From NCBI RefSeq assembly GCF_001584725.1, contig NZ_CP014606.1, forward strand, positions 1 through 64,000: 64,000 nucleotides of DNA. The letters run 5' to 3'. Shown here piece after piece: positions 25,617 to 48,736 of the stretch; the stretch's first letter is position 1, and every line of letters starts with the position of its first letter. The translations under genes were made by a program, and so were the position numbers. The notes beneath the pieces are model-generated. The model saw only the letters and a list, made by a program, of their open reading frames with translations, was not told the origin of the DNA and did not search any database. Origin of the DNA: an endosymbiont 'TC1' of Trimyema compressum. GTDB taxonomy: Bacteria > Bacillota > TC1.

Positions 25617-26831
25617 ATGAGTCGTGTAGATAGAAATCATGGAAAGAAAAACGGCAATAAAAAAAGAAGTAGCCATAAAACTGCTGAAGAAGAAGTTTTC
25701 GGGAGTAAGAATAGTAGACCCAGAAAAAAGAAGAAGAAAAAAAGAAAAGGGCTACGGGTTTTTCTCGGAGTTGTTTTAGCTCTAATTCTAATTATTGGTG
25801 GTGGTCTGTTATATGCGGCACTTTCAACTGGCTTAGTTCAAGATCCTACAGGCATAATTAAAGTACAAGATCAATTTAAGGATGATAAAGTTAACATTTT
25901 AATTGTTGGTTCAGATATTAGACCTGAAGATGAAGCTTCAAGATCTGATACTTTAATTGTTGGTTCAGATATTAGACCTGAAGATGAAGCTTCAAGATCT
26001 GATACTTTGATTGTTGGTTCATTTGATTTTAAGGCTAGAACAGCAAACCTATTATCTATTCCTAGAGATACAATGATTCCAATTTCTGGACATGGTAAGG
26101 ATAAAATCAATCATGCTTATGCTTATGGTGGTTTAGCTTTAACTGAACAGACTGTAGAGGATTTCTTAGGAATAAAAATTGATAGAACCGTTGAAATTAA
26201 TTTTGATTCTTTTAAAAATGCAGTTGATCAAATTGGTGGCGTTGATATAGATGTTGACCAGAAGATGTATTATCCGGAAGAAGGTATCGATTTAGTTGCT
26301 GGACAACAAACTTTAAATGGAAAAGATGCATTAGCCTATGTTCGTTTTAGAGGTACCCCAACAGGAGACTTAGGCCGTGCAGAAAGACAACAGAAATTTT
26401 TAATGGCTTTAGCCTCTGGTATTAAAAATAAAGCCAATGTATTTCGGCAAGCAGGTATATTAGCCGATATGTTAGGAAAAATTAAAACCAATATTACTTT
26501 CCAAGAGGCAAGCTATATGTTCAGTAAACATAGAGAACTTGATAACTTTACTATTTCTACATGGACATCACAGGGCATTCCAGAAACCATTAATGGTGTT
26601 TCCTATCTAATTCCAGAGGATCACTCTGATGATGAATCAAGAGAATTTTTAGAAGGAATATTATTTGCTGTGACAGATCCTAACGACTCAGAGAAGAAAA
26701 TTTTAGTTACTGAAGAAGAAAAAGCACAAATAAAAGCAGGTACTTTTACGGGCTCAACTAGAAACAACAGCACCAATAGTAACAGTAACAATAATAGCAA
26801 TAGTAATTCAAATAACTACAATAGCTACTAA
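25617..26831 (+). CDS. LytR-CpsA-Psr family wall-polymer ligase
   Basis: 404 aa type II membrane protein. A very basic N-terminal tail (1-43), TM about 45-68, then the LCP catalytic domain: RSDTLIVGSFD, LSIPRDTMIPI, KINHAYAYGG, VRFRGTPTGDLGRAERQQ. It ends in a flexible Asn/Ser-rich tail (about 380-404). LCP enzymes join anionic polymers to peptidoglycan. Odd: an exact 18-residue tandem duplication (VGSDIRPEDEASRSDTLI twice, from residue 96) just before the first catalytic strand. Forms a wall-polymer set with wecB and tagA. Confidence 0.93.
   Translation: MSRVDRNHGKKNGNKKRSSHKTAEEEVFGSKNSRPRKKKKKKRKGLRVFLGVVLALILIIGGGLLYAALSTGLVQDPTGIIKVQDQFKDDKVNILIVGSDIRPEDEASRSDTLIVGSDIRPEDEASRSDTLIVGSFDFKARTANLLSIPRDTMIPISGHGKDKINHAYAYGGLALTEQTVEDFLGIKIDRTVEINFDSFKNAVDQIGGVDIDVDQKMYYPEEGIDLVAGQQTLNGKDALAYVRFRGTPTGDLGRAERQQKFLMALASGIKNKANVFRQAGILADMLGKIKTNITFQEASYMFSKHRELDNFTISTWTSQGIPETINGVSYLIPEDHSDDESREFLEGILFAVTDPNDSEKKILVTEEEKAQIKAGTFTGSTRNNSTNSNSNNNSNSNSNNYNSY
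25899..26006 (+). repeat. Exact 54-bp tandem duplication inside the LCP gene
   Basis: Unit 25899-25952 is repeated without a mismatch at 25953-26006. A third partial copy of the unit start (one T to G change) follows at 26007. In frame, 18 residues per unit. The 15-base TTAATTGTTGGTTCA at the unit edge is the likely site of slippage. Confidence 0.97.
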
Positions 26832-32615: not shown

Positions 32616-33911
32616 ATGTTAACAAAAGAACAGCTAGAGGATCGTAAGTTAATAGAGCTTTATCAAATAGCAAAAGAATATATGATTCCAAGTTACTATA
32701 AGTTTAGAAAACAAGAATTAATTTTTGAAATTTTAAAAGCACAAGCAAAAAAAGAAGCCCATAATTTAACCGATGCAACTAGACCTAGAGCTGAAGGGGT
32801 ACTGGAAATTTTACCAGATGGATTTGGTTTTTTAAGACCATTTAAATATACTCAAGGACAAGACGATATTTATGTATCACCTTCTCAAATTAGGCGTTTT
32901 AATCTTTTAACAGGAGATAAAATTGAAGGTTTATTAAGACCCCCAAAAGATGGAGAACGCTACTATGCCTTATTGAGAGTTGAACATGTAAATGGCTTTG
33001 ACCCAGATGTTACTGCTAAGAGAATTCATTTTGATGCTTTAACACCAATCTATCCTACAGAAAGATTAAAATTAGAACATGGTAGTAACAACAAGGCTAT
33101 GCGTATAATTGATTTAGTTTCACCTATTGGCAAAGGGCAAAGAGGTTTAATTGTAGCTCCACCAAAAGCTGGTAAAACTACATTAATTAAAACCATTGCC
33201 AACTCTATTACTGCTAACTATCCGGAAATAGAACTGATAGTCTTACTTATAGATGAAAGACCTGAGGAAGTAACTGATATTGAGCGTTCTGTTAAAGGCG
33301 AAGTTGTGGCTTCAACTTTTGACGAGCCTGCAGAAAACCATGTTAAAATAACGGAAATGGTTTTAGAGAAAGCTAAACGACAAGTTGAATCAAAAAAAGA
33401 TGTCGTCATACTTTTAGACAGTATTACCCGTTTAGCAAGAGCTCAAAACTTAGTAACACAACCTAGTGGGAGAACCCTTTCTGGTGGTGTGGATCCAGCT
33501 TCACTTCATAGACCTAAAAGAGTTTTTGGCGCTGCCAGAAACATTGAAGAAGGCGGCAGCTTAACAATACTGGCTACGGCACTAGTTGAGACTGGAAGTC
33601 GCATGGACGAAGTTATTTTTGAAGAATTTAAAGGGACAGGTAATATGGAGCTAATCTTAGATAGACGTCTGGCAGACAGCAGACTATTCCCCGCTGTAGA
33701 TGTGAACCGTTCTGGCACTAGAAAAGAAGAGTTGCTTTTAGATGAAAAAGAACAGGAATTTATTTGGGGCTTTAGAAAAGAAATTCATTCACTATCTACT
33801 CAGGATGCTACAACTATGTTAGTAGATGCTATGAAAAAAACTAAAACCAACCAAGAGCTTATTAAGGCTTTTGAAATTATGTTTGGGAAAAATAAAAAAA
33901 GCAATAAATAA
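32616..33911 (+). CDS. rho: Transcription termination factor Rho
   Basis: 431 aa RNA-dependent ATPase. N-terminal Rho_N helix bundle (1-45), cold-shock-like RNA-binding domain (about 50-125, GFGFLRPF), then the RecA-type core: Walker [10 protein letters not shown] near 178 and Walker [15 protein letters not shown] near 266; Q-loop [11 protein letters not shown] near 286. ATG at 32616 has AAAGGA upstream; the TTG at 32601 is less likely. Last gene of the housekeeping block, and the island of relics begins right after it. Confidence 0.97.
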
Positions 33912-33990: not shown

Positions 33991-34932
33991 TTACCAGCCC
34001 TTCTCTTGCTTATTTTGCCAGTGGTGTTGTCTGTACTCCTTTGGTGATAATCCGCATTTTAACTTAAATACTGCTGAAAAAGCAGCATGGGTTTGGTATC
34101 CCACAATATTAGCAATTTGCTCTATATTTTTTCCAGTGGCAACTAAAAGCTCTTTAGATTTTTCGACACGTAAATATTGATAATATTCTGAAATTGTTTT
34201 ATTTGTTATCTGTCGAAAGATAAAGGATAGTTTGCCTTTGCTCATACAGGTGTATTTTCTACATTCGCTGATAGGTAGGGGTTTCTTCAATTTTTGAGAT
34301 AATAACGCTATTAAACCTTCAATGGCTTTTCTATCTGTATCTAAAATTTTGTCTGAATTTTTATAAGCATTGCGATTATCATACCATTCCACAAGCAATG
34401 CTAACATTTCTTTTATTTTAGCATCATAATACATAGCTATTCCACGACCGCTAACTGCCATATTTTTTATTTGGTTCAAAATTTCTTTTCCAGTATAGAA
34501 AGAAGTTGATGAACTTAAAAGCAATAAAGCTTCAAAAAGATCATTTTCTGAGACCTTTTCCATCTGCTTTAAAACTCTTGAGTAATACTCTGGCATTAGA
34601 GAAATCCCTATGCCTGAGACTTTTTTCATAGAAGGTAATATAAAGTTGAAAGCATTGCTTTACTCCAATAGCTATTTAGATTATTTTTTTAGTGTCCTCA
34701 TAATCGATATGGAGATATTCTGGCTGTTGCCATCTAATCTCAGCACTATTATAAAAAAATTTAGAGGTAATTGAAAATATATTTTCTCTTGTAAAGATAT
34801 TATAATATCCTTCACCAACGGTTTTTGTGGTACAAAAGAATAATAGTTGCCTACGGTTTTAGCATTGCAATCTAGATAAAATCCGCATTGTTTCATTTGC
34901 TGTAAAAATAATGTATTAAGGATTTTATTCAT
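33991..34932 (-). pseudogene. AraC-family regulator, degraded
   Basis: Minus-strand gene of about 314 codons. The start is clear (ATG 34932, AAGGAA upstream) and reads MNKILNTLFLQQMKQ. The frame breaks in the T run of about 34750-34760 (one base short): SAEIRWQQPEYLHIDYEDTKK lies in the next frame, followed by an in-frame stop. The rest (GIGISLMPEYYSRVLKQ...) with a double helix-turn-helix (MSKGKLSFIFRQITNKTISEYYQYLR; NIEQIANIVGYQTHAAFSAVFK) is open to 33991. Similar AraC regulators often accompany Trep_Strep ECF/ABC clusters, one of which lies 5 kb away. Confidence 0.82.
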
Positions 34933-35125: not shown

Positions 35126-35529
35126 ATGAGTAACATAGAAAATATAGTCCTTTGAATAAAGTAGTTCAAGATAATGATTTGGTTGGAGCAATTCATCGAA
35201 TGAATAGAAATGAATTCATATTTTTTAAATAAGCTGTTAGTCAAATTAATACTGATAACCCTATAGAAGTAGCGAACGTTGAAAGTCATTAGTTATTGAT
35301 TTATATGGAAATAGGAAAATGATGAGGTTATAATGAAATTTAATCTTGATTTATTGCAAATATTGCTAAATTTAAAAGAAAAATTCACGCTATATGAAAT
35401 AGATTATCCGGGCTATTTAAAAAGTAAATGTTAATACGACTTTATTAATTGCTTAAAATGCAAGAATATACTGGTATCTGGGATGTTTCTATTGAAAGAT
35501 TTAAAGAAATATTGGATTTGAAAAAATAA
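35126..35529 (+). pseudogene. Rep_3-family plasmid replication initiator relic
   Basis: Three pieces match the Rep_3 initiator order. First, NKVVQDNDLVGAIHRMNRNE (about 35155-35214), the N-terminal winged-helix start, after ATG 35126 with GAGGAGG. Second, NLKEKFTLYEIDYPGYLKSK (about 35371-35430), the FT-Y-LKSK linker. Third, RLY, TAA, LLKMQEYTGIWDVSIERFKEI (35437-35511), the RLYELLK helix and second winged helix. It contains in-frame stops (one at 35446 replacing glutamate), frameshifts and a missing middle. Recognised by motif pattern only. It implies a plasmid integrated here and decayed. Confidence 0.6.
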
Positions 35530-35674
35530 ACAGATAGAACTGCTTCAAAAAATAGTTGAAAATCAATAATCAATAACACTGGAAATGAAACATTAATTTT
35601 ATTTTCAACATTTAGCCCACCAATTAATTGAAAAATAGTCAAATAAAAAGTTAAGTAAAAGGATATTATTAAAA

Positions 35675-36349
35675 ATGAATGATAATAAAACAGCGTATAT
35701 ACCAACTACTTATGACAAACAAGTTATGAAAACAATTCCTTATTATAATTTATTTCATGAAACCACTATTGATTTAGTTACTAATGCTAATATTAAAGTG
35801 CATAGCTGGTTAGATATTGGTTGTGGAACTGGAACATTTATCAAGAAAGCTAAAGAAATATTTGTTGAAACACAATTTGTTCTAGCAGACCCTTCAATAA
35901 AAATGCTTGACCTTGCTAGAAGTAAAATAAACAGCAAATCAAAAATTACCCTCATTGTTTCTGATTCACAAAATCTAGACTATAAAGATGAAAGCTTTGA
36001 TGTAATCACAGCTATTCAATCTCATCATTATATGAGTAAAACCGAAAGAGTAAAAGCAATTAACAATTGCTATAGAATGCTAAAAAATAATGGTATTCTT
36101 ATTGTATTTGAAAATATAATGCCATTATCTAATGATGGTGTTAAGATTGGACTAAAAAGATGGGGGAATTATCAATTGAGAAATGGTAAGGCAATAAATG
36201 AAATAAACCAGCATATTGATAGGTTTGGAAAAGAGTATTTTCCAATTTCAATCATTGAGCATATAAATTTATTAAATAAAGTGGGATTTAGAAGCGTTGA
36301 GATACTGTGGACTTCATATATGCAAGCACTATTTTATGCAATAAAATAG
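35675..36349 (+). CDS. Class I SAM-dependent methyltransferase
   Basis: 224 aa, intact. SAM-binding motif I WLDIGCGTGTF near 48-58, acidic residue at the end of strand 2 (VLADPS near 75), motif III-like DVITAIQSHHYM near 108-119. Most like Methyltransf_25/UbiE-type small-molecule enzymes; the substrate cannot be told. AAAGGA lies about 11 bases upstream. One of very few intact genes between rho and galE, so it may still be under selection or a recent arrival. Followed by a terminator. Confidence 0.85.
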   Translation: MNDNKTAYIPTTYDKQVMKTIPYYNLFHETTIDLVTNANIKVHSWLDIGCGTGTFIKKAKEIFVETQFVLADPSIKMLDLARSKINSKSKITLIVSDSQNLDYKDESFDVITAIQSHHYMSKTERVKAINNCYRMLKNNGILIVFENIMPLSNDGVKIGLKRWGNYQLRNGKAINEINQHIDRFGKEYFPISIIEHINLLNKVGFRSVEILWTSYMQALFYAIK

Positions 36350-36436
36350 TGCGAATAAATATATATATGTATTGATATATGCTTTTTATTGGAGCAAACA
36401 GGAAACCGTAAAATGGTTACCAACATTACTTAACTA

Positions 36437-36475
36437 AAAGTAACTGCTGTGTACAAAGAGGCAGTTGCTTTTTTG
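36437..36475 (+). terminator. Terminator downstream of the methyltransferase
   Basis: GTAACTGC / GCAGTTGC stem (one G-T pair) with T6 after it. It lies about 90 bases after the methyltransferase stop. The remaining gene-free stretch to 36790 holds nothing else I can name. Confidence 0.65.
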
Positions 36476-36790
36476 TTGTTTTATTATGGCAACAATTAAT
36501 GACGCAAAAGAAATCATTAGTATCAATGATTCAAATATGTTCATTAGCACTACCTCCCTCCAATTTACTAAATTGAAAGATTGTGAGTAACCGCTCAAAG
36601 CTCCTATATACTAGAGATAATTATAGTATGAAAATTTAAATATTTGTATAATTCAATCAAGGTATTTTTGCCTATTTTTCCGAGTTTTGCACCCAATAAT
36701 GTATGATACCATCCATTTCAGAAAATGTACTTTTTGAAATAACTGGATTTCTCTTGTTTATATGTGTCATAATTATAACATAAATATTTT

Positions 36791-36826
36791 TGAAACGTTT
36801 TAGTTTCATTGTAGATATTTTGAAAC
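36791..36826. repeat. TGAAAC repeats upstream of the resolvase (possible res/operator site)
   Basis: TGAAACGTTTTAGTTTCA (36791-36808) is an inverted repeat with a 6-base centre. A third direct TGAAAC lies at 36821-36826. Serine resolvases bind such imperfect 12-bp repeats just upstream of their own gene. Position and form fit; function is inferred. Confidence 0.4.
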
Positions 36827-36871
36827 AAAAAAGAGCCAATCGAATTGGAAAAAGAACATGAGATAATACTA

Positions 36872-37242
36872 ATGAGACAATTATTTTACATACGCGTAAG
36901 TAGTCGGGATCAATCTGTAGAACGGCAAATTGCTGTAGCAAAAGAATTAGGGATTTCAGAAGAGGAGTATATTTTTATAGAAAAAGCAAGTGGAAAAGAT
37001 TTTAAACGACCAGAATATCGGATAATGAAGCGAATGTTTCGAAGTGAAGATATTCTTTATATTCATTCTTTAGATCGATTAGGCAGAAATCAAAAAAATT
37101 GAATTATCTGAAAGCTTCTCTTATATATAATAACTGGAAAGTAAACATAATAATGGCAGTTAATGCTATGAATCAGTTAGGGCTGAAACGAAACACTTTT
37201 TATCGAAGATTTAAAGAATATGATGAAAATCTAAAAAATTAA
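36872..37242 (+). pseudogene. Serine recombinase (resolvase/invertase), internal deletion
   Basis: The N-terminal catalytic half is present: LFYIRVSSRDQSVERQ with nucleophilic serine near residue 10, then IHSLDRLGRNQKN with the catalytic arginine, ending at a TGA at 37100-37102. After about 40 unreadable bases the C-terminal helix-turn-helix reappears in another frame (AVNAMNQLGLKRNTFYRRFKEY, to 37242). The helix E region (about residues 80-150) is deleted. Full-length relatives are 180-200 aa. Typical plasmid or transposon resolvase, matching the nearby Rep_3 relic. Confidence 0.85.
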
Positions 37243-37243
37243 C

Positions 37244-37284
37244 CGGGAGTGTTTCAAATTTTGTGCAAACTTAAGTCACTCCCG
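37244..37284. repeat. Inverted repeat CGGGAGTG...CACTCCCG
   Basis: Perfect 8-base arms (37244-37251, 37277-37284) around AT-rich DNA containing TTTGTGCAAACTT. The GTGTnnAAnnTTTGTGcAAAC look recalls IS256-family ends, which would suit the IS256-like scrap at 50.4 kb. It could instead be a terminator for the resolvase. Confidence 0.4.
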
Positions 37285-38731: not shown

Positions 38732-39058
38732 TCAGGTGACCGTGGACCACCAGAATAACCATGTATAGCCTGTTTGACCTGGTGCACAAGCTTTTAATCT
38801 AACACTCACAGGATTTTGAACTCGACTTTGAGCATATGTTATAGCTTTTTGGCAATAAAATACAGAAGTAGCATTCTCTTTCCATCTTGCTTCATCATTA
38901 CCTTCCATTAATTCCCCGTCATTAAAACTAAATTGAATCCATGTTTGGGATTGATTTGCAAATAATACGCTAGGCGTAAATAGTAAACCTATCAATAGCA
39001 AAACACTAAATGCAACTACTCTTGTATCATCGCCTAATTCGATTTTTTGAATATGCAC
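38732..39058 (-). CDS. Small secreted protein, possible bacteriocin-like peptide
   Basis: 108 aa with a clear signal peptide (hydrophobic VVAFSVLLLIGLLFTPSVLFA, cleavage likely after ANQ) and a mature part of about 72 residues with two cysteines (FYCQKA, LKACAPGQTG) and many aromatic residues. Not recognised. Context (an ABC ATPase of the lactococcin-972 group immediately downstream) suggests a secreted peptide or immunity partner. The C-terminus may be shifted, since another frame gives a smoother ending (YSGGPRSPDSGV). The start codon has no strong RBS. Confidence 0.5.
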   Translation of the reverse strand: MHIQKIELGDDTRVVAFSVLLLIGLLFTPSVLFANQSQTWIQFSFNDGELMEGNDEARWKENATSVFYCQKAITYAQSRVQNPVSVRLKACAPGQTGYTWLFWWSTVT

Positions 39059-39620: not shown

Positions 39621-40078
39621 GTGTGTAAAGTTGAAAGAGAAGAAAGAAAAAGAGGCTTTAGCCGTCTCATAGAATTAGTAGCACAAAAACGTCTATTAAT
39701 TATTTTAGGCTGTGTATTAGGAGCTGTTGCTACAGTCATTCAATTTTTGCCTGCAATTTTATCCTATTTGGCAATGATAACAGTAACGGAAGGTATGTTC
39801 ACAACTGGAACTATTGATTTCGAATATATTAGTAAGCTTGCTTTTGCTGCACTGGGTTGTTTTATTGCTTATTGTGTTTTATTTTACTTTGACAGTATGT
39901 GTATCCATGTGGCAGCGTTTGATATTTTGTACTCACTGCGCATTAAGATTGCTGAGAAGTTATCACGCTTGGTGGGAATGGGCTATTTTCTGACGAAATC
40001 AACGGGTAGTATTAAACAGGTAATGAATAATGATGTAGAGAATATTGAAAAGTTTATTGCCCATCATAAAACGAACTT
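39621..40078 (+). pseudogene. N-terminal fragment of an ABC exporter (membrane domain)
   Basis: About 150 residues: a cytoplasmic start, two or three membrane spans (LLIILGCVLGAVATVI; LAFAALGCFIAYCVLFYF), then the ABC type-1 coupling region (LRIKIAEKLSRL...STGSIKQVMNNDVENIEKFIAHH). GTG start with GGAG. It stops abruptly at HHK; the rest of the membrane domain and the whole ATPase are gone. The next bases encode the middle of a different ATPase, so a deletion joined two genes near 40069. Confidence 0.82.
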
Positions 40079-41254
40079 GCTTTTGGTTGTGAAAACCTAG
40101 GACTAAGCAGAGCTGAAATGAAACAAAGAATGGATTATAAGGTGAAAAGTCTTTGTATTGAAAATCTGATGAATCGAAATATATTCACTTTTTCAGGTGG
40201 CGAAAAACAGATGCTTTCCATTGCCTCTGCTTATGCTATGGGATCAGACATATTTGTGTTGGATGAACCTACGGCAAATCTTGATTCTTTTGCTACAGAG
40301 CAACTAGCTATTATGATTGACAGGCTGAAAAAGAAGGCAAAACCATTATTATATGTGAGCATAGGCTTTATTTTTAAAAGATTTAGCAGATAGAATATTA
40401 TACATTAATGAAGGGCAAATTGAAAAAGAGTGGTCCAATGTGAGGAATTTGGGAATCTTACTAAGACAGAGCGCCAAAAAATGGGGCTAAGAGCATGGAA
40501 TCTTAATAATATAACTATTACAGATGCTTAGGTTAATTCTAAAGATAGGGATTACTTTAATTTTCAAAATCTTACTATTGGATACAACAAGAAAGAACCT
40601 GTATTTTGTAACCTTTCTGGTTCAGTAAAGAAAGGTGAAATTACTGGGATTATTGGTCGCAATGGAGAAGGAAAATCCACCCTTGCTCGGTTGTTTATGT
40701 GGCTTATGTAAGGAATACTCTGGGAAAGTTTTTTTCAAAGGAAAAGAACTTTCTTTTCGAAAAAGATGTGGTGAGATATATCTTGTGATGCAGTAAACAA
40801 ATTATCAACTTTTTAGTGATAGTGTCAAAGGTGAAGTATTGATGTCTTTGAAGGTAAGCAATGATACGAATAAGGAGGATCATAATGAACTTTCAACCTC
40901 GCTACTTGCAGCACTTTCTTTGGATAGGTTTGCTGAAAGACACCCCATGACCATTTCAGGGGGGAGAAAAATAGCGTTTGGCTATTGCTGCATGAATTGC
41001 ACAAAATGCAAAATTATGGCACTAGATGAGCCTACCAGTGGCTTGGATTATACTAATATGTATAATAACGAGTTAAAGCTTTAATGGAGATGATGTTAGA
41101 TAAGGGCAAAACACTAATTGTAATTACTCATGATTATGAATTTCTTGTCTCAACTTGCAACGCTGTAATTGAATTAGGGGGGTGGAACTATAAAAGATAC
41201 TTATCCCGTATTAAAAAACAATTCAAAAAATTTGAAAAACTTTTTGAAATATAA
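40069..41254 (+). pseudogene. Two-domain ECF transporter ATPase, N-terminus deleted and decayed
   Basis: The first ABC domain enters at ELAFGCENLGLSRAEM (40070-40120) and has signature FSGGEKQML and Walker B IFVLDEPTANLD. The second has FQNLTIGYNKKEPVF, Walker A GRNGEGKST, Q-loop VMQ, signature TISGG, Walker B IMALDEPTSGLD and H-loop ITHDYEF. The first Walker A is lost to the deletion; stops and frameshifts lie near 40350, 40450, 40530, 40710, 40797, 40965 and 41070. Dual ABC domains followed by the S-component gene mark an ECF-type importer of the MptD/Trep_Strep cluster type. Confidence 0.82.
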
Positions 41255-41275
41255 TAGAATTTTGGAGGAGTAAAA

Positions 41276-41728
41276 ATGAAAAGTAAAAATGAACTGAAAA
41301 GTAAAGATTTAATTGTTGTAGCTATATTTTCTCTCTTATACAGTATATGCTTATTTATAATAGCGGGAATTGCTGGCATGATTCCCATAGGATTTATTAT
41401 GTTTGGCTTAGTTGGCTTTATTCCTTGTGGAATTATTTATATGTATCTGAGAGCTAAAGCGCTCTAAAAAGCTATAAATTAAATACTTTGGGATATATTG
41501 TTTTTTCTTTGGCTTGGTTTTGTTTTACCAATGGTCATTATGAAAGACTGCTATATTGAATATGCAGCATTGAGAGGCATTTCGGCTGATTATATTAGTT
41601 CAATTGTAACTATGATGAATAGTCCTGTAGCTTTAGCAGGTCTAATTGGTTTTGTTGTAGGAGCTCATATTGGATCTATTTTAGGTAAAAGATTACTAAA
41701 AAACATTTTGAAAAAGCAGTTAATATAA
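41276..41728 (+). pseudogene. ECF transporter S component (MptD/Trep_Strep family), internal deletion
   Basis: The N-terminal part KSKDLIVVAIFSLLYSICLF...PIGFIMFGLVGFIPCGIIYMYLRAKA and the C-terminal part FFLWLGFVLPMVIMKDCYIEYAALRGISADYI...GALIG-like end (AHIGSILGKRLLKN) match the two ends of a Trep_Strep protein. The middle (about two membrane spans) is missing and the frame is broken at 41465. RBS GGAGG before the ATG. Substrate of this family unknown. EcfT is not present nearby. Confidence 0.78.
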
Positions 41729-42231: not shown

Positions 42232-42304
42232 GAGATTTATGAGGAAGGTAACGAGAGTCATATTAATTTTATAAATTATAACATATATCAAATAAAAAAT
42301 GCAA

Positions 42305-42341
42305 ATATGAGACAGTCCTTAAGGACTGTCTCATATTTTTG
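42305..42341. terminator. Perfect 32-bp palindromic terminator
   Basis: ATATGAGACAGTCCTT / AAGGACTGTCTCATAT with T5 on the + side and A/T-rich sequence on the other. It ends the minus-strand ABC-2 cassette, whose last stop is at 42361. Confidence 0.85.
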
Positions 42342-46085: not shown

Positions 46086-47102
46086 TATTTCGCTGGCTAT
46101 AGGAATCAATCCTTTCGATAGATATTTTGAAACCATCATAGTTTCGAATGGTTATTTTAGCATTGTGAATCGTAAATCGGTTACGGATGCCCTGTAATCC
46201 CATTCCTTCTTTATAGGCTTTGTTTATAGTGCCATTATCAAAAAGAATAAAATTAAGGAAATTATTTTCTTCATATAGCAAAATAGTGAGTTTATTACCA
46301 TTTGAATGTTTTTTATATTGGTTTTAAATTCCTTAATCGTCTGAATTATTTTTGTTTGCACACTTTTTGTAAGTTTAGAAAATAGGAGATAGCTACTAAA
46401 AATAACTTCAATTTGTTTATTTTTAGAGTCAACAAATTCTTTTAGTAAAGCTAAGTTAGTTAAATTATCCTTTGTATTATAAATACTGGACCTAATTTCT
46501 TTATGAATATCTTTTAAGGTTGCATCTAATTTTAAAAGAATATCTTCATTGTATTCTGCTTTTAGAAAATCTACATAAAAAATAGAACGTGTAAGAATAT
46601 GACCTACATTATCATGAAGTGTTTGAATCATTCTACTTCTTTCTTTTTCAGATAATTCAAGAACTGTTTTTCTTATAAATTATAGTATTGATTAAGAAGC
46701 GCTTTGTATTGCGCTACTTCCTCTTGAGATTTTTTGTTCATTAATAAGTTTTTGACGTACCTGTTCAATATAGAGGATAAGAAGGAGTACAATTACTACA
46801 GCTATTTGAATAAGATTTGTATTAATTAAAATAATAGCATAGAGGGTTAAAATAGGCCAGTACTTTCTAAAACTACTTAAGAGGATTGGAAATAGGGGTA
46901 AATATAATTGTGGAATAAGGATTAGAAGTAGTATCCATTCCCCTTTTTCATTAATTAAGAGAAAAGGTATAGCGCCTATTACCGATGCCAACAAGTAGAA
47001 ATTGTTTATTTCTGGTCCTAATAAAACAATATTAATATAAGTTAAGAGTAAAGTCCCTATTTTATAAAGAAGAGGAATAAAATCCTCTTCTTTATAATGC
47101 AT
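46075..47102 (-). pseudogene. NarL-type sensor histidine kinase, degraded (LnrJ-like)
   Basis: The N-terminal membrane domain of about five spans (47102 to about 46780) is intact in frame. The frame breaks near 46690; the HisKA_3 phospho-acceptor segment MIQTLHDNVGHILTRSI then appears, breaks again near 46310, and the ATPase end GMGLQGIRNRFTIHNAKI closes at 46075. Start MHYKEEDF lies inside the 3' end of the lipoprotein gene. Short extracellular loops suggest intramembrane sensing. Two or more frameshifts. Confidence 0.8.
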
Positions 47103-47695: not shown

Positions 47696-48736
47696 GTGAT
47701 TTTAGTTTGTGGCGGGGCTGGCTATATTGGCAGTCACATGGTTCGTTATTTAAGAGAAAAAAACAAAGAAGTGCTAGTAGTGGATAATCTGCGAACAGGT
47801 CATAGGGAGTCTGTGCCAGAGGATGTACCTCTCTATGTTGGCGATGTTAGAGACATGTCATTTTTAAAACGAGTTTTTAGTAATAATCAGATAGATGGGG
47901 TTATTCATTTCTGTGCCCATTCATTAGTGGCAGAAAGCATGGAAGACCCTTTAAGATATTATGATAATAATGTAGGAGGAGCCATTAGCCTGCTTTCTGT
48001 CATGAGAGATTTTAAGGTGCCTAATATTATATTTTCTTCAACAGCAGCTACTTATGGGGAACCAAAGACAGTTCCTATAACTGAAGATTTAGAAACTGTA
48101 CCGACTAATCCTTATGGAGAAACAAAATTAGCCATGGAAAAAATGTTTAAATGGGCTGATGTAGCCTATGGGATTCATTATGTAGCTTTACGCTATTTTA
48201 ATGTAGCTGGTGCTTATAAAACAGGAAAAATAGGAGAGGATCATAATCCAGAAACCCATTTAATTCCTCTTTTGCTTCAAGTACCATTAGGTAAAAGAAA
48301 AGAAGCCTATATTTTTGGTACAGATTACCCTACATCAGATGGTACCTGTGTGAGAGACTATATTCATGTTATGGACATAGTTGATGCTCATGTCAAAGCT
48401 TTAGACTATTTAGAGAAGGGCAATCCTTCAAATACTTTTAATTTAGGAACGGGACAGGGCTTTTCTGTTAAGGAAATTGTAGACATGACAGGGCAGGTTA
48501 CGGGGAAACCTTTACCAACTATTTTAAAAGAGAGAAGAGCTGGAGACCCTGCTGTTCTCGTAGCCGACAATAAGAAAGCAAAAGAAATGTTAGGTTGGGA
48601 ACCAAAACATTCAAATATAGAAAAGATGATTGCTTCAGCTTGGCTGTGGCATAAAAATCATTCGGAAGGATATTATGAGCAAGAAGAAATTTTATGCAGT
48701 TTTAAATGGAAAAGAAGGCAAACCGAGAATTTATGA
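47696..48736 (+). CDS. galE: UDP-glucose 4-epimerase
   Basis: 346 aa extended SDR. NAD motif GGAGYIGSHM at 5-14 and catalytic YGETK in TNPYGETKLAMEK near 142-154; also RYFNVAGA near 170. The usual family end is near WLWHKNHSEGYYE; here the frame continues 17 codons and overlaps the next gene by 62 bases, so the original stop may have been lost. Start GTG at 47696 with GGTGGGA-type spacing. Supplies UDP-galactose/glucose for surface sugars. Probably functional. Confidence 0.93.
   Translation: MILVCGGAGYIGSHMVRYLREKNKEVLVVDNLRTGHRESVPEDVPLYVGDVRDMSFLKRVFSNNQIDGVIHFCAHSLVAESMEDPLRYYDNNVGGAISLLSVMRDFKVPNIIFSSTAATYGEPKTVPITEDLETVPTNPYGETKLAMEKMFKWADVAYGIHYVALRYFNVAGAYKTGKIGEDHNPETHLIPLLLQVPLGKRKEAYIFGTDYPTSDGTCVRDYIHVMDIVDAHVKALDYLEKGNPSNTFNLGTGQGFSVKEIVDMTGQVTGKPLPTILKERRAGDPAVLVADNKKAKEMLGWEPKHSNIEKMIASAWLWHKNHSEGYYEQEEILCSFKWKRRQTENL

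Follow-up and report, generated by a model that had tools for sequence, protein, structure and literature searches.

The interval between rho and galE in the chromosome of the Trimyema compressum endosymbiont 'TC1' raises the question of where the broken replication and recombination genes found there came from, and whether they arrived together. The window analyzed here covers the first 64 kb of a contig of 1,586,453 bases that starts just before dnaA; this main contig and a second contig, C2 (35,795 bases), make up the genome. rho ends at 33911, galE starts at 47696, and the 13.8-kb interval between them is mostly made of broken genes, with a G+C content of 25.7% at 35-36 kb versus ~35% in rho. 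The original prediction had read part of this interval as the relic of an integrated plasmid, composed of a Rep_3 initiator in three pieces, a serine resolvase with a deleted middle and an intact methyltransferase that might have been plasmid cargo. For comparison, one genome of the genus, relatives from the family outwards and ~400 genomes drawn from the phylum were used. No close precedent for a Rep_3/resolvase locus of this kind appeared in the titles and abstracts of a literature search.

The initiator is represented by three pieces on the + strand. By three-frame reading, 35152-35289 gives the N-terminal part (VVQDNDL...AVSQINTDNP) with one in-frame stop, as LNKVVQDNDLVGAIHRMNRNEFIFFK-stop-AVSQINTDNP. 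The end of the first winged-helix domain (KFNLDLL...EKFTLYEIDYPGYLKSK) follows in a different frame at 35333-35431, reads MKFNLDLLQILLNLKEKFTLYEIDYPGYLKSKC and corresponds to positions 100-131 of Pfam Rep3_N, and the linker region (RLY-stop-LLKMQEYTGIWDVSIERFKEILDL) lies at 35437-35526, reading RLY-stop-LLKMQEYTGIWDVSIERFKEILDLKK. A local Rep_3 HMM was run on every stop-to-stop piece of the whole 64-kb window in six frames, with no preselection of pieces. Its top three hits were 35449-35526 (E 1.8e-6), 35315-35431 (E 8.6e-6) and 35134-35229 (E 3.1e-4), and the next-best piece reached only E 2.1, so that the predicted fragments, their coordinates and their order all hold. The order is also right along the profile, where positions 1-33 are followed by 98-141; the middle of the gene is deleted. 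Since this HMM was partly built from plasmid proteins that had themselves been retrieved via the relic, the scan was repeated with an HMM of the three intact Rep_3 proteins of C2 only, which were chosen independently of it. The first two fragments were recovered again (E 1.7e-7 and 7.7e-4), and the third fell to noise level (E 4).

Curated models gave a compatible picture. In a whole-genome profile search, Pfam Rep3_N matches 35306-35428 at E 5e-4. Read jointly, the fragments score 36.2 bits, above the curated cut-off of 22.4 for Rep3_N; singly, two of them remain below it (18.9 and 13.7 bits) and the third has no score. These weak single scores are what could be expected if A+T-rich non-coding DNA resembled Rep_3 by chance. 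However, the fragments are the top three of all pieces in the window and stand in the correct order, two of them are found with the independent HMM, and the top plasmid matches are named replication initiators, and we therefore give a chance resemblance next to no credence. At E 1e-5, a plasmid protein search with the relic gave no match, and at relaxed E the matches were weak and consistently initiators: the nearest plasmid proteins are ~35-45% identical and mostly named replication initiation protein. Because the closest ones are spread over many phyla, no close parent of the relic is known. A plasmid DNA search with the Rep_3 stretch found no match, and a phage search with the relic returned one weak match.

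Rep_3 initiators are theta-type, iteron-binding proteins that open the plasmid origin. The relic agrees with these initiators of theta-replicating plasmids (PF01051, Rep3_N) in its first winged-helix domain and linker, both in order and in residues. In contrast to them, it is broken and chromosomal, has a deleted middle and has lost the second winged-helix domain, of which the six-frame scan of the window detected no additional fragment. Given this loss, it is a pseudogene relic, a non-working member of the family. Neither iterons nor other origin features were found beside it. On the chromosome it is the sole trace of Rep_3, the three intact genes being located elsewhere, on C2, and none was found in nine relatives from the family or order. 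Taken together, these results indicate that the fragments are genuine, of plasmid type and foreign to the family, and a plasmid-type (or phage-plasmid-type) origin is well supported.

The presence of intact Rep_3 genes on C2 suggests a possible source within the same genome. C2 (L005, L006) is a phage-like replicon with terminase, major head and tape-measure proteins identified by profile and portal- and amidase-like genes identified by reading. It carries three divergent Rep_3 genes, one of which is immediately preceded by an array of 22-bp tandem repeats. The C2 terminase is ~34% identical to those of Geobacillus phages, and no relatives of C2 were found in IMG/VR. Within a 581-aa open frame of this contig, an 18-bp unit is repeated perfectly 18.3 times (L005:10671-10999) and reads as INIYLC repeats. 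The chromosomal relic could thus come from an integrated phage-plasmid like C2, which combines phage head, tail and terminase genes with Rep_3 genes, and its N-terminus is indeed nearest to one of the C2 proteins (20/35 residues). The remainder of the relic, however, is no nearer to C2 than to unrelated plasmids, the window has no DNA similarity to C2, and the insert has no recognised phage gene. We consider such a source improbable. The broader proposal, in which the locus would be the fossil of an earlier C2-type phage-plasmid in a lineage that repeatedly acquired Rep_3 phage-plasmids and integrated one of them once, is in our judgement quite improbable as well.

The surroundings of the relic indicate how it may have reached the chromosome. 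In four relatives of the family, the gap between rho and rnhA is just 0.5-0.75 kb and contains one or two small unrelated genes; a fifth shows the same short gap after rho, with its contig ending just inside rnhA. Therefore, the whole stretch, including galE, is either extra here or was lost there. To the left of the relics lies an AraC-type regulator (33991-34932, - strand; HTH_18, E 2e-18), broken between 34629 and 34690. To their right, at 39621-41728 on the + strand, Pfam and tblastn from five AraC/ECF loci identify a broken ABC exporter fragment, double ECF ATPase fragments and a Trep_Strep-type membrane protein. The same kinds of genes occur in the same divergent arrangement in five other genomes of the phylum (L160-L164), with the AraC gene ~0-135 nt from the ECF/ABC operon. 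Here, in contrast, the locus is broken, and a gap of 4.7 kb, partly filled by the relics, separates its two halves. As the AraC homologues are only ~30% identical, the compact layout should be taken as a pattern of these gene types and not as a direct view of the locus before insertion.

At both the family and the phylum level, the Rep_3/resolvase segment is absent from the same place in relatives. Judging from gene order, this supports a probable insertion into the AraC/ECF locus, whose edges would fall somewhere between about 34,933 and 39,620. The rho-galE synteny comparison that had been proposed thus established the absence of the segment from relatives but did not yield the exact edges. 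Neither direct flanking repeats nor the sharp edges of a single integration were found beyond A+T-rich chance matches, and no RNA families or tRNAs that could have served as integration targets were detected in the whole 64-kb window. Within the insert, nothing was recognised as a gene for mobilisation, partition or a toxin-antitoxin system. Other broken genes occupy 37.3-39.1 kb, outside the Rep_3 and resolvase relics, so the insert may be composite. At 38732-39058, a secreted-looking 108-aa protein has no family assigned; its reading as a lactococcin-972-like bacteriocin was dropped, as no profile match supported it.

Several further features of the window were recorded. Between 43417 and 47117, broken ABC-2 transporter and ABC ATPase genes stand beside a two-component system whose response regulator is intact. 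A perfect 36-bp palindrome (AAATATGAGACAGTCCTTAAGGACTGTCTCATATTT) occupies 42303-42338 and a second palindrome (89%) lies at 47062-47097. A LytR-like protein (25617-26831) contains the internal repeat VGSDIRPEDEASRSDTLIVGSDIRPEDEASRSDTLI.

The second component of the proposed relic is the serine resolvase, for which the reported deletion of the middle proved real. A 76-aa N-terminal relic, in which the catalytic domain begins (36872-37102, + strand), matches PF00239 at E 5e-14 over profile positions 3-80 of 145, leaving the catalytic domain incomplete. Measured against the intact 205-aa resolvase of Enterococcus faecalis pPD1 (NZ_KT290268), ~244 nt net are missing from the middle. The C-terminal helix-turn-helix tail (37132-37239, + strand; 77% DNA identity to pPD1) lies in another frame because of this central deletion. 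DNA similarity to pPD1 continues for ~160 nt upstream of the gene, which corresponds to the res recombination site (36710-36830, + strand; ~72-78% DNA identity to pPD1 and Tn3-type loci). The TGAAAC repeats seen originally (at 36791, 36803 and 36821) all fall within this conserved site, together with GTTTCA motifs. Directly after the tail, at 37244-37284, there is a terminator-like inverted repeat. From its letters it was suspected to be an insertion-sequence end, a candidate that was rejected as the repeat is unique in the genome.

Resolvases split dimers or cointegrates at res, and the relatives of this one are found on two kinds of elements. The relic shares ~74% DNA identity with pPD1 through the res site and the gene ends, and unlike pPD1 it lacks the central 244 nt and the RepA, uvrA and ParA neighbours; compared with Enterococcus plasmids, its resolvase and res are 72-74% identical at the DNA level. 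The nearest resolvases share 72-80% amino acid identity with the N-terminal relic. Among the 15 nearest, about half have a divergent Tn3-type transposase ~120-180 nt upstream, while others, such as that of pPD1, do not, and in this nearest group carriage on Tn3-type transposons is as frequent as carriage on plasmids. As examples, the Tn3-family TnpR proteins of Oceanobacillus bengalensis (L059) and Cytobacillus (L061), each with a divergent TnpA, are 76-77% identical in amino acids and have the same res layout; in contrast to these loci, the relic has no trace of a transposase. A scan of bacterial genomes collected 74 related resolvases, and no Rep_3 gene occurs in the flanks of any of them, examined to at most 6 kb on each side. 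With kin on both plasmids and Tn3-type transposons and no Rep_3 neighbour in that set, the resolvase alone is no argument for a plasmid. Of the claim that both proteins belong to a plasmid backbone, the Rep_3 half stands, whereas the resolvase half fails to discriminate, its subfamily being equally at home on Tn3-type transposons.

These relationships open the possibility of two events, in which a Rep_3 plasmid or phage fragment would have been joined by a separate Tn3-type transposon later reduced to tnpR and res. The frequent upstream transposases argue for it, as does the resolvase tree, where the entries at the shortest path from the relic are carried by transposons. However, the tree does not firmly group the relic with either the plasmid or the transposon kind, and the highest DNA score to the relic belongs to pPD1. 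A remnant of the Tn3 transposase (TnpA, DDE) was considered and rejected, with no trace in the window or the genome; the only weak match near the resolvase is a reading of the res palindrome. We regard two events as a reasonable conjecture that falls somewhat short of probable.

Between the two relics lies a class I SAM-dependent methyltransferase of 224 aa (35675-36349, + strand), whose open reading frame is intact, as originally described (Methyltransf_25, E 5e-21). Its nearest solved structure is 3dtn (E 6e-18), and it resembles UbiE/CmoA-type proteins, with scores well under all the NCBIfam cut-offs shown. No relatives were found in the family or order, nor did a search of genome_contigs give a match. 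Among 398 sampled genomes of the phylum, the best relative is 41% identical and has chromosomal-looking neighbours. No plasmid relative exceeds 60% identity, the best-covering plasmid matches being ~25% identical. The gene may have been plasmid cargo, its tie to the plasmid being one of neighbourhood alone. The intact gene may still be in use.

The original reading would have the initiator, the methyltransferase and the resolvase arrive on a single Rep_3 plasmid that integrated whole and later decayed. The three genes share a strand and fall within 2.1 kb with little else in between, the G+C content of each is below that of rho, and the resolvase with its res site resembles the stand-alone resolvases of plasmids, pPD1 among them. 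Several observations speak against it. The lack of Rep_3 genes around the related resolvases and of close plasmid relatives of the methyltransferase, both described above, are two of them; in addition, pPD1 has its own initiator, annotated 'replication initiator protein A', ~8 kb away from the resolvase. No intact plasmid with the same gene set as the insert was found. Given that the resolvase subfamily occurs on both plasmids and Tn3-type transposons, the adjacency of rep and resolvase need not mean one plasmid, and a common plasmid for all three genes is possible though doubtful. The proposed integrated plasmid is therefore retained in part: the absence of the segment from relatives and the split of the AraC/ECF locus agree with it, while sharp edges, iterons and the union of the genes in one plasmid do not emerge. 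Of the two outcomes named beforehand as fatal to it, a lack of Rep_3 profile hits for every fragment and the segment as chromosomal genes in all relatives, neither occurred.

The explanation that we consider likely combines a Rep_3 relic of plasmid or phage-plasmid type with a resolvase/res relic of plasmid or Tn3-type origin, both within a 4.7-kb insert at the AraC/ECF locus. The initiator (35152-35526) would have been brought into the chromosome by a plasmid or a plasmid-like phage, and the resolvase and res (36710-37239) would derive from a plasmid or a Tn3-type transposon, both now lying between the AraC regulator and an ECF/ABC operon that was presumably once adjacent to it. While the genes were active, the initiator would have opened a plasmid origin, with the resolvase acting at res to split dimers or cointegrates. 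The initiator is now non-functional because of its stops, frame breaks, deleted middle and missing second DNA-binding domain, and the resolvase because its central part is lost. Entry as a plasmid, like any shared origin of the parts, is what we infer from this arrangement, and the best reading is a fragment of a Rep_3 plasmid or phage-plasmid that decayed within a chromosomal graveyard. Genomic fossils of this kind are common and ordinary, and this one opens no new mechanism; the locus records that a small chromosome once received a plasmid-type insertion, and it sets outer limits to that event.
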